Positions 28,401-34,400 of a DNA stretch of 64,000 nt are shown in pieces. The notes under the pieces were generated by a model. The model saw nothing but the letters and a program-made list of their open reading frames with translations. It was not told the DNA's origin and made no database searches. Location of the stretch: assembly GCA_017654935.2 (NCBI GenBank), contig CM065699.1:11582966-11646965 (forward strand), read 5' to 3'. The position numbers were made by a program, and so were the translations under genes. Every line of letters starts with the position of its first letter. Position 1 is the first letter of the stretch. This stretch comes from Phymorhynchus buccinoides. Lineage: Eukaryota; Mollusca; Gastropoda; Neogastropoda; Raphitomidae.

Positions 28401-31400
28401 GATCTGCGTGCAGTGCATCTTGCTTCTTCGTTGCATGTTTGATTATCAGCTGATTTTATCTAAAAGAGGTAAAGAATCGATATATAATTGTTATTAGGAC
28501 TTTGCAATGGAATTGCAATCGTGGAGATAAGCATCAAGGCTCTTGAGATAGGATAAAAGCAATATCCCATTGCAAAATCCTAATAACTGATAATATTTGC
28601 GTTTATGTTACCATTTTTAATCTCAGTAATGAGAGACATATTGCTGAAGAAATCAAGAGCAAGAATGGATGAACATTTTAGAAGTTCTGTGTTAGTTGTT
28701 TTTTTCTGCGAGTGCAATAAAGAAGTCACATTAATTATATCCAAAATGACATCTCCGGGTGACATAATTGTATCCATATTCTGATATATTTTCAGCTTTT
28801 TTTGTGCTAAAGATTGAATGGAATGTACTTTGTGTATGGATTAAACAGAAAAACGAATCTATTGCATTGTGAATTATTCTACTCATAAAAATGCTGACCG
28901 CCTGTATTACCACTGCATAGCAGTCAAAAAGAAAGAAACTATCACATTGTTATTTTACTACAGTGGAACCTCCCTTATAAGAGCTTCAAAAATCATCCAA
29001 AATGAGGTCCTATTGGCCATTGCACGTAGGGTTATTAACGCCCTTGGCGGCAAGAGGTAAGCCCTTGTTGATCAGTATCCAAAAGGGCATTCACTCTTGC
29101 AAAAGGAAGCCATTAAGTGGCCTCAAATAGGGTTATTGGCGAGAGTTATGCCCTTGTTTGTTTAGTACTCAACCATCTTCCCCCACCCACCAAGGGCATT
29201 CACTCTTGCAAAAGGTGTTCTTTGCAGTGGCCAATAAGGGAGGGGTCTTATAAGGGAGGTCATTTTAATACTTGCAAAGAAGGGCAATGTCTCAGAGAAG
29301 TAGGTCTTATGTGGGAGGGAGTCTTATAATGGGAGGTCTTATAAGGGAGGTTCCACTGTACTGTACAGATCAAGATGCTGCCCACCCCGGCCAAGTTCCA
29401 CTACATCTTCAACCTGCGAGATCTGTCGCGCATCTGGCAGGGCATGCTGAAGACTGGCTCCTCCACCGTGACCTCGGAGAAGGTGCTCATGTACCTCTGG
29501 AAGCACGAGTGCTGCAGGGTCATTGCCGACAGGTACCCTAGGACTGTTCTTTCTGAACTTATTGCAGGGTCATTGCCAACAGGTACCATAGGGCTGTTCT
29601 TTCTGAACTTATTGCAGGGTCATTGCTGACAGGTACCATAGGACTGTTCTTTCTGAACTTATTGCAGGGTCATTGCCGACAGGTACCCTAGGACTGTTCT
29701 TTCTGAACTTATTGCAGGGTCATTGCCGACAGGTACCCTAGGACTGTTCTTTCTGAACTTATTGCAGGGTCATTGCCAACAGGTACCATAGGGCTGTTCT
29801 TTCTGAACTTATTGCAGGGTCATTGCTGACAGGTACCATAGGACTGTTCTTTCTGAACTTATTGCAGGGTCATTGCCGACAGGTACCCTAGGACTGTTCT
29901 TTCTGAACTTATTGCAGGGTCATTGCCGACAGGTACCCTAGGACTGTTCTTTCTGAACATATTGAAGGAAAATACCCTTGGAAGTGTTTTGTTAAACTGA
30001 GCAATCTGGGTGTTGAGTTGTTGTTGACATACCCTGGCTAGATGACTCCGGGGATCATCCCAACAGCCGAAGCACTTGAACACTATGGTACAAATCAGCT
30101 TAGCTCAACTTTTACTCAACTCAAATGCACCAGCTAAGGATGAGAACATTACATGTTTTTGACCACGTGGACAGCCACACTCCGTCTTCGGGGGATTTAG
30201 GAGACTTATGATGTTATGCTAGGAACTTGTCATGGCTAAAGACAATCCCAGCATAACTATGCTTAGCATAACAACATTTTGATGTAGCCTTGGTGTTCCA
30301 GCCTCTGTCAATTGGTCTGATACAGCCTTAAGCCAAGGCCAATGTTCATTGAGTGAAATTGCCTTCCACTTGAGCTGTTTTCTTTTTCAAAGAGAATCAA
30401 AATGCAGGACAACTGTATGATCAGCATGCTATTGTTATTTTCCTTTGAATTTGCAAGCTTTGAGATATAATTTTCTGAATCAGTAATGTTTTAACAATAT
30501 GGCGTCTTTTTAAAAAAGCAAGTCATATTGAAAGCAATTATTATTGTTCTAAAAAGAGTAATAATGCAGACTTGTGTACACAGGCAAATGAACTTGGTGT
30601 TCCAAGTTGAGCTTATTTAGCACAGGGTGCTCAAGGTAAGTGGAAGTTTTTAACAAATGAGCTGCTTTGGACTGAATAGCATGTTTTGGATGGAAGAATC
30701 CGAACAGTATGTACGGCAGTTTTTTTCTGACCATAAACATGTTGTTTATTTTATCTGATATTTACCGATATGTTTGGATTTGTGCGTTTGTCCGTCTGAT
30801 CTTACCTATGTGTCTAGAGGCATCGATAATTTTGTTTTACCTTTGCTCACATGCATGTAGATTTATGATTATTTTTTGTTCTGATCTTTGACAAGAGTTT
30901 TTTTCTTATATCTGATGTTGATTGGCGACATGTCTAGGTTCACCCACAAGGAGGATTTGGCCTGGTTTGTGAAGAACATGGGTCGCGTTGTCACGGAGAA
31001 CATGAGCGAGGATTTGGCCAAGATGACGGAGCCTTTTCATTTCTTTTCAGATTTCCTCAGGTAGCGTTTCCCCATGTACCCCCACCCCATCACTCCCCTG
31101 CACTGTGGGTGCATGACCAGAATGTGGAGTATATCTTCACCCAGCACCTGCATGCGTGTTGTGCCTGCATTTATATATAATATGTAAATGTTGTAGTTCC
31201 CCAAACCATGTTCCTGAGCTTTGTCAGAAATTGGAATGAAAATCTGTTTAGCGTCCTCCGGTCTGGAACAGGGACATTAGTAGATATAAAGATGGTGGGA
31301 ACGATCCTGGACGCAATGCCTGGAGGCAGTGCAACACCAGGAAAGTCCCGAATTATGAACAATACAGATAAGCATAATTAAAAGATTATCATAAATTATT

Positions 31401-34400
31401 ATTTGTCAGAAATTGTTAAGTCTAAAGATGACTAACAGTGAATAAATCCAGTTTGGGACATTTTGTATGATCCACTTTTGTTTTTCATTCCACACTCTAA
31501 GTGCTCCTTAAAATTTGTTGCTGTTTATGTTTTTTCATATCTGTTAAATACTTTTTGTTTTTATGTTTCTTTTTTGTAAACAAATTTCCTTGAACATTAG
31601 AGAGAGAAAATGGAGCTTTACGTCCTCTTGGTCTGAATCAGACACATATGGGACATTTGTAAATACAAATATGGTTGGAACAATACTGGAGGCAATGCCC
31701 GGAGGCAGTACGAAACCAGTAAAGTCCCGATTTTTAATATTAATACAGATAGCTGTAGCGGTGACCACGCCTCGGTTAAACCTCATCGGCTATGGCACCG
31801 CCACAAGTAGTAGAGTTCCTTGAACATTATAACATTTTGAATATTATAATATTTTGAATATTATAATATTTTGAACATTATAACATTTTGAATATTATAA
31901 TATTTTGAACATTATAATATTTTGAACATTATAACATTTTGAATATTATAATATTTTGAACATTATAATATTTTGAACATTATAACATTTTGAATATTAT
32001 AATATTTTCCCAAAATAAATTTGGATAATATTTGACATTTTTTCTGTTGTTGCATTGTCGTTCCCTGGCTTAAAGACTCCAGGGATCATCCCAACAGCCG
32101 AAGTACTTGAACACTGGTACAAATGCACCAGCTAGGGATGAGAACATAACCTGTGTGGACGTTTTTGATTACCCCGCCACATGGGCAGCCACACTCCGAC
32201 TTTGGAGGAGGACATTTTTTCTGATACAGTGGAACCTCCCTTATAAGACCTCCCATTATAAGACTCCCTCCCACATAAGACCTACTTCTCTGAGACATTG
32301 CCCTTCTTTGTAAGTATTAAAATTACCTCCCTTATAAGTCCCTTATATTAAGACCTCATTTTGGATGATTTGTTAAGGTCATGAAAAGGAGGTTCCTCTG
32401 TACTGAAGAGTTTTGGGAACTACAACAGCACGTTGATGTGTGTCGACCACAGTGTTCAGCACAATCTTCACAGTAACCCATGGCTTGATGGATGTCTTCA
32501 AGGAGCGTTCAGTAGTGTTCATAGCTGCAGACATGTGTTCTTAGATTCACCAGAACAGAAGACTCGGACTGGTTGGTGAAGACCATGGGCCGGGTGGTGA
32601 TGGAGCAGTTGAGGGAGGAACTAGCCAAGCACACAGAACCCTATCATTTCTTTGTCGAGTTCCTCAGGTAGCCTCCCTTTAATTGACCATCCGCTTCTTT
32701 CCCCGCCTGGCTTATTGTTGTCTCCCTTGAGACGTTAGCTGTGGTAGTTGTTCTTCAGTTTGGGCTGCGGTCAGCTGGCTGTGTTTTTGTCCCGACTGTG
32801 CTTCGTTTCAGTTTTCAATTTAGTTTGATGAGTTGCAGGTAGAGTTGTTGCCGATTTGCTTTTTTTTGCGCATGTGTTTTGATTTTGTGTGGACTTCACT
32901 GACATGATTGCCATATGTGTTCATTTTAAAACATTTTTTTTTACAAATGCTTTTACCAAAGACTGATTTTGTGGGAGAAAAAGGATGAGGAACAGACTTG
33001 TCATGGCATAACTACTGTAATACTTGTACATGTATCAAACTGCATTTCTCCATAAGAGTATGGGAATGCTATCTAGAATACCAGAATAAAAGGATGCTTT
33101 GTTTTAAAAAAAAGAAAGAATAAAAAATGGTTACATGCTTTTGATGGCTTCAATAAATTTGATTTTACCTTTGCCATGAGAAAGGCTACATTTGGCTGTG
33201 GAAACAAGCTTGGTCTTGGCTGTCATTATTACTATTATTCAGGACCATAAGATCTTAAATGGTAAAAGCATTTGTTTTTGTGTGTGTGTTTTTTTAGACG
33301 TGAATCTTATGCTTGTCATTTCTACACTATGCGCATTTTATTTTGCTTGGTGTCTTTTTTAGCACGTTTTGTTTTTATTATCACTTCAATCTGACTTGCT
33401 TGATTCACATTCTTTTATATGTGTGCACTAATATAGCAGAGTGTGTTGCTTGGTGATGCTTGATGAAGTTAATGAACGCACTGCACATTATTGTCGCTTC
33501 ATGCTTTAGGTGTGTCACTGTGGACGATCTTCGTTGGTTCGACAAGACCGTGCTTCGCGTCGTGGGAGAAGAGTTGTCAGATGATCATCACGAAATGGTT
33601 TCCACCCATCCTTTCTTCTGTGACTTCATGAGGTATTCAATCTCACTGCAAAGCAAGGGGCTGCAAGTAAAGTCATAAAAATGGGTCTTGATGGCTACTT
33701 TGTGGATACAGGATCCCCCCCACCTTCCCTTCCTTTACCCAACCCCATTAAGTTATCCGACTTCAAACTTCAGTAAGCGTAACTCTACTCCAAACTTTAG
33801 TAAGCATAACTCTACTCCAAACTTCAGTAAGCGTAACTCTACTCCAAACTTCAGTAAGCATAACTCTACTCCAAACTTCAGTAAGCATAACTCTACTCCA
33901 AACTTCAGTAAATGTAACTCTACTCCAAACTTCAGTAAGCGTAACTCTACTCCAAACTTCAGTAAGCATAACTCTACTCCAAACTTCAGTAAGCGTAACT
34001 CTACTCCAAACTTCAGTAAGCGTAACTCTACTCCAAACTTCAGTAAGCATAACTCTACTTCAAACTTCAGTAAGCATAACTCTACTCCAAACTTCAGTAA
34101 GCATAACTCTACTCCAAACTTCAGTAAGCATAACTCTACTCCAAACTTCAGTAAGCGTAACTCTACTTCAAACTTCAGTAAGCGTAGCTCTACTCCAAAC
34201 TTTAGTAAGTGTAACTCTACTCCAAACTTTAGTAAGTGTAACTCTACTCCAAACTTCAGTAAGCGTAACTCTACTCCAAACTTCAGTAAGCGTAATTCTA
34301 CTCCACTCTCCGTACCATCCTGCAATGGTTTGGCTAGCCACTCTTTTTTTTTAAGCATAGTAATTCTTCAAGCATTTAAAGACATGCTGACGCACCACAA

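Follow-up and report, generated by a model that had tools for sequence, protein, structure and literature searches.

The diversity of axonemal motors is usually put down to separate genes. Mutually exclusive splicing offers another route to motor diversity, and the clusters of exons that undergo it are recognized by equal length, conservation of splice sites and reading frame, and homology between the exons, according to a study that counts DHC1, a cytoplasmic dynein of Schistosoma mansoni, among its examples (PMC3228551). Muscle myosin supplies another case: arthropods and molluscs have clusters of mutually exclusive exons in Mhc, and vertebrates have many genes (PMC3912159). The stretch of DNA considered here, 64,000 nucleotides (nt) of the raphitomid snail Phymorhynchus buccinoides (GenBank assembly GCA_017654935.2, contig CM065699.1, positions 11,582,966 to 11,646,965; hereafter the window), contains the central part of a + strand gene for an axonemal dynein heavy chain. 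Three exons at position 21 of this gene probably form an old cluster of mutually exclusive alternative exons in a molluscan gene of the DNAH5/8 type.

The identity of the gene was established from its encoded protein sequence and its relatives. A tblastn search with the Littorina protein P0001 spans residues 1493 to 3969 of that protein, and a DYH2-5-8 coiled coil at residues 1268-1375 lies ahead of the part covered by the window. When the AAA3-AAA4 segment is compared with solved structures, human DNAH5 scores 1000 bits, followed by 9fqr_I3 with 944 bits and an outer-arm gamma chain with 573 bits; 9fqr_I3 is presumably DNAH8, the name listed for it being that of a different protein. In a quick tree of 49 rows from which the exon was left out, the closest neighbors of the window are Littorina and Babylonia (Shimodaira-Hasegawa-like approximate likelihood ratio test, SH-aLRT, 97), with Pomacea joining next (86), within the gastropods (100); outside the exon, it is 94% identical to Babylonia and falls among gastropod DNAH5-like proteins. 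By these structure matches and the tree of the flanks, the gene is a caenogastropod outer-arm dynein heavy chain of the DNAH5/8 type; DNAH5/8 had also been named from the bare sequence. The tree of the flanks also contains a second DNAH5-like caenogastropod gene (P0023, P0024, P0032, P0035 and P0037), which probably lies on the same chromosome as the main gene in Babylonia, Littorina and Pomacea, where the contigs listed for the two genes are equal in length. Among the matches listed, the window is 85-87% identical to the main Babylonia and Littorina proteins and 70-71% identical to those of the second gene, and on this comparison the window gene is not the second one.

The cassette lies between two constant exons, all on the + strand and with splice sites fitted to P0001. 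Exon 20 (29369..29532) ends with HECCRVIAD and the AG of a split arginine codon, and exon 22 (36664..36733) opens with the split arginine; further downstream, exon 23 (38919..39172) carries the Walker A motif of AAA4, as placed by splice fit and structure match. Between exons 20 and 22, exons 21a (30938..31060), 21b (32545..32667) and 21c (33510..33632) follow one another, each 123 nt long, located by open reading frame (ORF) and identity comparison together with splice fit for 21a and trees for 21b and 21c. Each has AG before it and GT after it, is made of one base, 40 codons and two bases with no stop, and is in phase 2 on both sides, and each alone bridges exon 20 to exon 22 in frame. The split codon on entry is AG|G, AG|A and AG|G for 21a, 21b and 21c, and that on exit is AG|A, all of them encoding arginine. 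Equal length, the same phase with compatible splice sites, and homology between exons are all found at this locus. The fit succeeded for 33 of 34 junctions between the chosen exons, the remaining one leading into an exon at 42793 amid repeated copies.

In protein, 21a and 21b are identical at 25/40 residues, 21a and 21c at 16/40, and 21b and 21c at 12/40, with 88/123, 64/123 and 61/123 identical nucleotides, respectively. These comparisons and the ORF and splice fits confirm the structural claims of the sequence-only reading, including the length, phase and absence of stops in all three exons, the ability of each to join exons 20 and 22 (both now placed by the fit to P0001), and the counts of 27/42 (a:b) and 18/42 (a:c), which are the present figures plus the two split-codon arginines. 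A profile of exon 21 from other animals, from which the window's own exons had been left out, matched 21c (E 2e-18), 21a (2e-17) and 21b (2e-16), and it found no fourth copy among 2147 ORF segments on both strands of the window (next E 0.15). These profile matches exclude a chance likeness of the three exons. An assembly or haplotype duplicate is ruled out by the nucleotide identities. The exon-edge repeats found elsewhere in the gene were rejected as the origin of the cassette since, by tblastn, those copies are partial, so that the earlier remark that the cassette exons are full length, unlike other copies, also stands.

In P0001, exon 21 corresponds to residues 2880-2921, both split arginines counted. 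By Pfam, AAA_lid_1 covers 2820-2899 and DYN_lid 2830-2882, and AAA4 (AAA_8) starts at 2971. Judged by these borders, the exon encodes the C-terminal portion of the lid of AAA3 together with the first stretch of the link that leads to AAA4, which gives a more exact form to its earlier placement between AAA3 and AAA4.

Relatives were drawn from the best 120 of 3975 proteins, and from the best 120 of 450 with P0004 as the query, in a database that holds one protein per 90% cluster and in which several records are titled isoform X2 to X6 by NCBI. Trees under the LG and C20 models divide the exons into class 1, with 21a and 21b, and class 2, with 21c, which refines the earlier picture of three diverged exons into two close kin and a separate, older class. 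Both trees place 21c with exons of Pomacea, a chiton, heterobranchs and bivalves, and in the C20 tree 11 mollusc exons form a class 2 clade with support of 96/92, or 95/92 for a 13-exon set that includes two limpets. The nearest exon to 21c is that of Pomacea isoform X3 (27/40), followed by those of Aplysia and Liolophura (21/40), although the flanks join the window to Littorina and Babylonia before Pomacea. The nearest to 21a and 21b are those of Littorina X2 (26 and 25 of 40) and Babylonia X2 (22 and 28 of 40). Exon 21 of the second caenogastropod gene appears class 1-like. With the classes named from the trees first, an acidic residue precedes Lys/Arg in 15/15 class 2 exons and 1/11 class 1 exons, and the position two residues after the Lys is Ile, Val or Leu in 14/15 of class 2 and Met in 10/11 of class 1. 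The class of Mya was assigned from its likeness to Dreissena and not from a tree, and the class 2 label of Octopus is unsure because its placement varies: the LG tree puts it with class 2 at low support, the C20 tree elsewhere.

The distribution of the two classes speaks for alternative exons. Among 22 mollusc models of the main gene, 20 contain one exon and two, Biomphalaria P0004 and Mytilus coruscus P0005, contain two in series, one per class. The one-exon models, eight of class 1 and 12 of class 2, are dispersed over the tree, and in seven pairs of relatives that differ in class the flanks are 91-96% identical and the exons only 25-55%, as in Aplysia and Plakobranchus (93 vs 28%), Plakobranchus and Bradybaena (91 vs 25%), Littorina and Pomacea (91 vs 45%), and Ostrea and Crassostrea (96 vs 55%). 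Exon identity in four same-class pairs from the same groups is 52-78%. Over all pairs, mean exon identity is 50% within classes (94 pairs) and 42% between them (96 pairs), a contrast partly built in, the classes being named from the exons; not built in is the finding that exons so unlike each other sit between flanks so alike. A tree of 17 of the 20 proteins, in which 13 of 14 inner branches are starred and from which Patella, Lottia and Octopus were left out as less sure in class, requires six changes of the class label. Because close flanks carry exons of different classes and the label changes so often, the exons are best read as alternatives within one gene, and a gene holding both exons, with models showing either, would be a simpler account than six replacements.

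The three exons also appear to have been kept by selection. Between 21a and 21b, the nonsynonymous and synonymous distances dN and dS are 0.25 and 1.17 by the Nei-Gojobori method (NG86) and 0.22 and 3.98 by maximum likelihood (ML); dS is saturated for a:c and b:c. In neutral simulations matched for the number of differences (20,000 draws in each direction), the observed protein identity together with freedom from stops was reached in 0.0006-0.0009 of draws for a:b and 0.00015-0.0002 for a:c, and both pairs look constrained. These values, with all three exons open, bear out the description of the exons as old but intact. They also make it very unlikely that one exon is used while the others are decaying tandem copies or noise, an explanation that draws on the richness of this gene in partial exon copies. 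Decay is further opposed by the correct boundaries of all three exons and by the occurrence of each class as the sole exon in some other mollusc models, from which both classes are usable; the case is weakest for 21a and 21b, as P. buccinoides is the only species in which two class 1 exons were seen.

Under the reading of an alternative-exon cluster, each transcript would take one of 21a, 21b and 21c, and the exons, with their unusual splice sites, probably compete for one exon 20 donor and one exon 22 acceptor. Depending on the exon chosen, about 41 residues would be exchanged in the small (lid) domain of AAA3 and where its link to AAA4 begins. The separation of class 1 from class 2 would predate the divergence of Pomacea from Littorina, Babylonia and the window, and probably also that of snails, bivalves and chitons from one another, whereas 21a and 21b would stem from a more recent duplication among caenogastropods. 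The cassette would probably serve to supply outer arms with differently tuned AAA3-AAA4 coupling to different ciliated cells or sperm. Of the mutually exclusive cassette that the sequence-only reading had proposed, the part concerning alternative exons is upheld by the relatives, the two classes and the structure; the use of one exon per transcript, like the exclusion mechanism, the tissue choice and the effect on the motor, is something we infer from sequence.

Splicing signals in the cassette differ from those in the rest of the gene. The donor lacks G at +5 in all three cassette exons, and 28 of 32 other fitted donors have it (p 0.005), that of exon 20 being one of the four without; the acceptor is TAG in all three, and C occupies -3 in 31/32 others (p 0.0006), with the qualification that these features were sought after the cassette was known and that the common descent of 21a and 21b deprives the tests of independence. 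By weight matrix, one of 32 other acceptors scores below 21a or 21b and four score below 21c. Known devices for enforcing exon exclusion are a short intron, a U2/U12 mismatch, a frameshift and RNA pairing. The 123-nt length speaks against a frameshift here. For pairing, a candidate stem in the a-b intron joins an 18-nt 5′ arm with 17 paired bases, 128 nt after 21a (31189..31206, + strand), to a 3′ arm 117 nt before 21b (32410..32427, + strand). None of 300 shuffles of the intron, with its AT-rich array removed, reached this stem (observed 14, best shuffle 13), which was picked after seeing the sequence, and the pairing serves as a lead only for a stem that would loop out the a-b intron. Once arrays were taken out, the cassette introns as a whole showed their strongest pairing in a local hairpin near 34415-34538, a level that one of 60 shuffles also reached. 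The intron after 21c has at 34415-34538 a 47-nt inverted repeat of 77% identity with a 30-nt loop, perhaps a small mobile element.

Several observations weigh against an old cluster of mutually exclusive exons, some of them touching exclusivity and others the classes and their age. The evidence consists of genomic sequence and of protein models taken one per cluster, rather than of two isoforms per species. Donor weakness is only moderate in 21a and 21b (eight and seven of 31 others score lower, and two for 21c), and the exon 20 donor, CAG|GTACCC, is weak too (two of 31 lower). Pyrimidine content before the acceptors of 21a, 21b and 21c is ordinary (0.50, 0.55 and 0.68, with a mean of 0.63 in the others), and the introns between the cassette exons, 1484 nt (a-b) and 842 nt (b-c), look too long for steric exclusion. 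All exon combinations keep the frame (123 = 3 x 41), so double inclusion or skipping would not be policed by frame, and two exons stand in series in five gene models from four species, namely the snail Biomphalaria, the mussel Mytilus coruscus, the flatworm Macrostomum and the rotifer Didymodactylos (two models). The exons could thus be alternative but not strictly exclusive, with two or three included in series to give a longer AAA3 lid. This is quite unlikely, as 196 of 201 parsed models hold one segment of 38-43 residues and five hold two (208 models in all; of the seven left unparsed, two were read as single-exon). Moreover, M. coruscus, with two exons, and M. californianus, with one, are near-identical in the flanks, and Macrostomum has models of both kinds (P0011 and P0014), a mixture among close kin that would fit an automatic predictor joining alternatives.

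As to the classes, 21c is identical at 20/40 residues to the class 1 exon of Ostrea and at 17-20/40 to second-gene exons (two reach 20), which makes identity alone a poor separator of classes beyond the nearest kin, and the constraint signal is weaker for b:c (0.014-0.015 of neutral draws). As to age, the exon trees and approximately unbiased (AU) tests use few columns, 40, and monophyly is not rejected for the gastropod exons as a whole (0.13), the bivalve exons as a whole (0.25), the heterobranch exons (0.22), the rotifers (0.26), or the pairs of Mytilus (0.16) and Macrostomum (0.45). The same tests reject the grouping of the window's 21a, 21b and 21c (p-AU 0.003), of six caenogastropod main-gene exons (0.027) and of the Biomphalaria pair (0.020). 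From these rejections and non-rejections, a class split older than the divergence of Pomacea from Littorina, Babylonia and the window is supported, and one before the crown molluscs is likely; comparison with relatives makes the cassette older than the bare sequence could show. Another account of its age, compatible with alternative exons, is separate duplication in gastropods and in bivalves, with the two classes arising in each and the cassettes being convergent. The failure of the 40-column tests to reject gastropod and bivalve clades is in its favor, as are the flatworm and rotifer tandem pairs, which do not clearly sort into two classes, and the position of Octopus outside class 2 in the C20 tree. 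It is nonetheless rather unlikely, given the well-supported class 2 clade joining bivalve, gastropod and chiton exons and the acidic residue that marks that class.

Repeats are abundant in the window. A 50-nt unit in about nine copies occupies 29513-29968, from the final 20 nt of exon 20 into the intron toward the cassette; it repeats the exon end and donor (CAG|GTACC), possibly as a row of decoy donors with 15 nt from AG to GT in each. Many exons have partial tandem copies of one edge and the adjoining intron, about 62-98% identical to the reference copy (by tblastn at 5610-6170, 7447-8202, 14338-14567, 15075-15474, 20848-21231, 26176-26238, 42132-43069, 59819-60210 and 62334-62804), as if minisatellites keep capturing exon-intron borders. 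Long tandem arrays occur in the introns after the cassette at 33760-34305 (27-nt unit), 35057-35662 (21 nt) and about 37012-37703 (49 nt) and 37753-38040 (48 nt). Near-identical ORFs at 17044-17805 and 57793-58584 look like copies of one dispersed element.

No account of this exon cassette in DNAH5/8 was found in searches of an open-access library, in agreement with the sequence-only reading, which knew of none. A dynein-repertoire study, reportedly that of Kollmar in 2016, may note it, and the NCBI isoform models may hold the cassette without comment. In vertebrates, the segment at the same protein position differs between DNAH5, where it is two residues longer than 21a, and the chain taken as DNAH8, where it has no extra residues; the vertebrate diversity resides in two genes and that proposed here in exons of one gene, though caenogastropods also have a second gene. 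It is a tentative but serious possibility that a cassette older than the crown molluscs, perhaps ancestral to spiralians, yields at least two outer-arm motors with different AAA3 lids that are sorted to different cilia and sperm. If so, it would be to cilia what the exon clusters of myosin are to muscle, and would achieve by splicing what vertebrates achieve with the separate genes DNAH5 and DNAH8. Given a conserved cassette in the motor ring, the outer arms of a single animal would vary from one cell type to another with no change of gene, and the AAA3 lid would stand out as a natural site of tuning.

Among published dyneins, the nearest case found is DHC1 of S. mansoni, likewise a dynein heavy chain; it differs from the snail cassette in being cytoplasmic, in coming from a flatworm and in having one alternative exon beside the query exon (PMC3228551). 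In kind, muscle myosin comes closest, since protostome Mhc also has old clusters of homologous exons within the motor domain that adjust a single motor gene (PMC3912159). The motor is a different one, the Mhc clusters are documented there by expressed sequence tags (ESTs) and complementary DNA (cDNA) whereas the snail cassette is known from sequence, and some molluscs have several Mhc genes. A cassette of this kind is already known from myosin and from DHC1 of S. mansoni, and the one described here appears new for DNAH5/8 and is distinguished by its age and its place inside the dynein ring.

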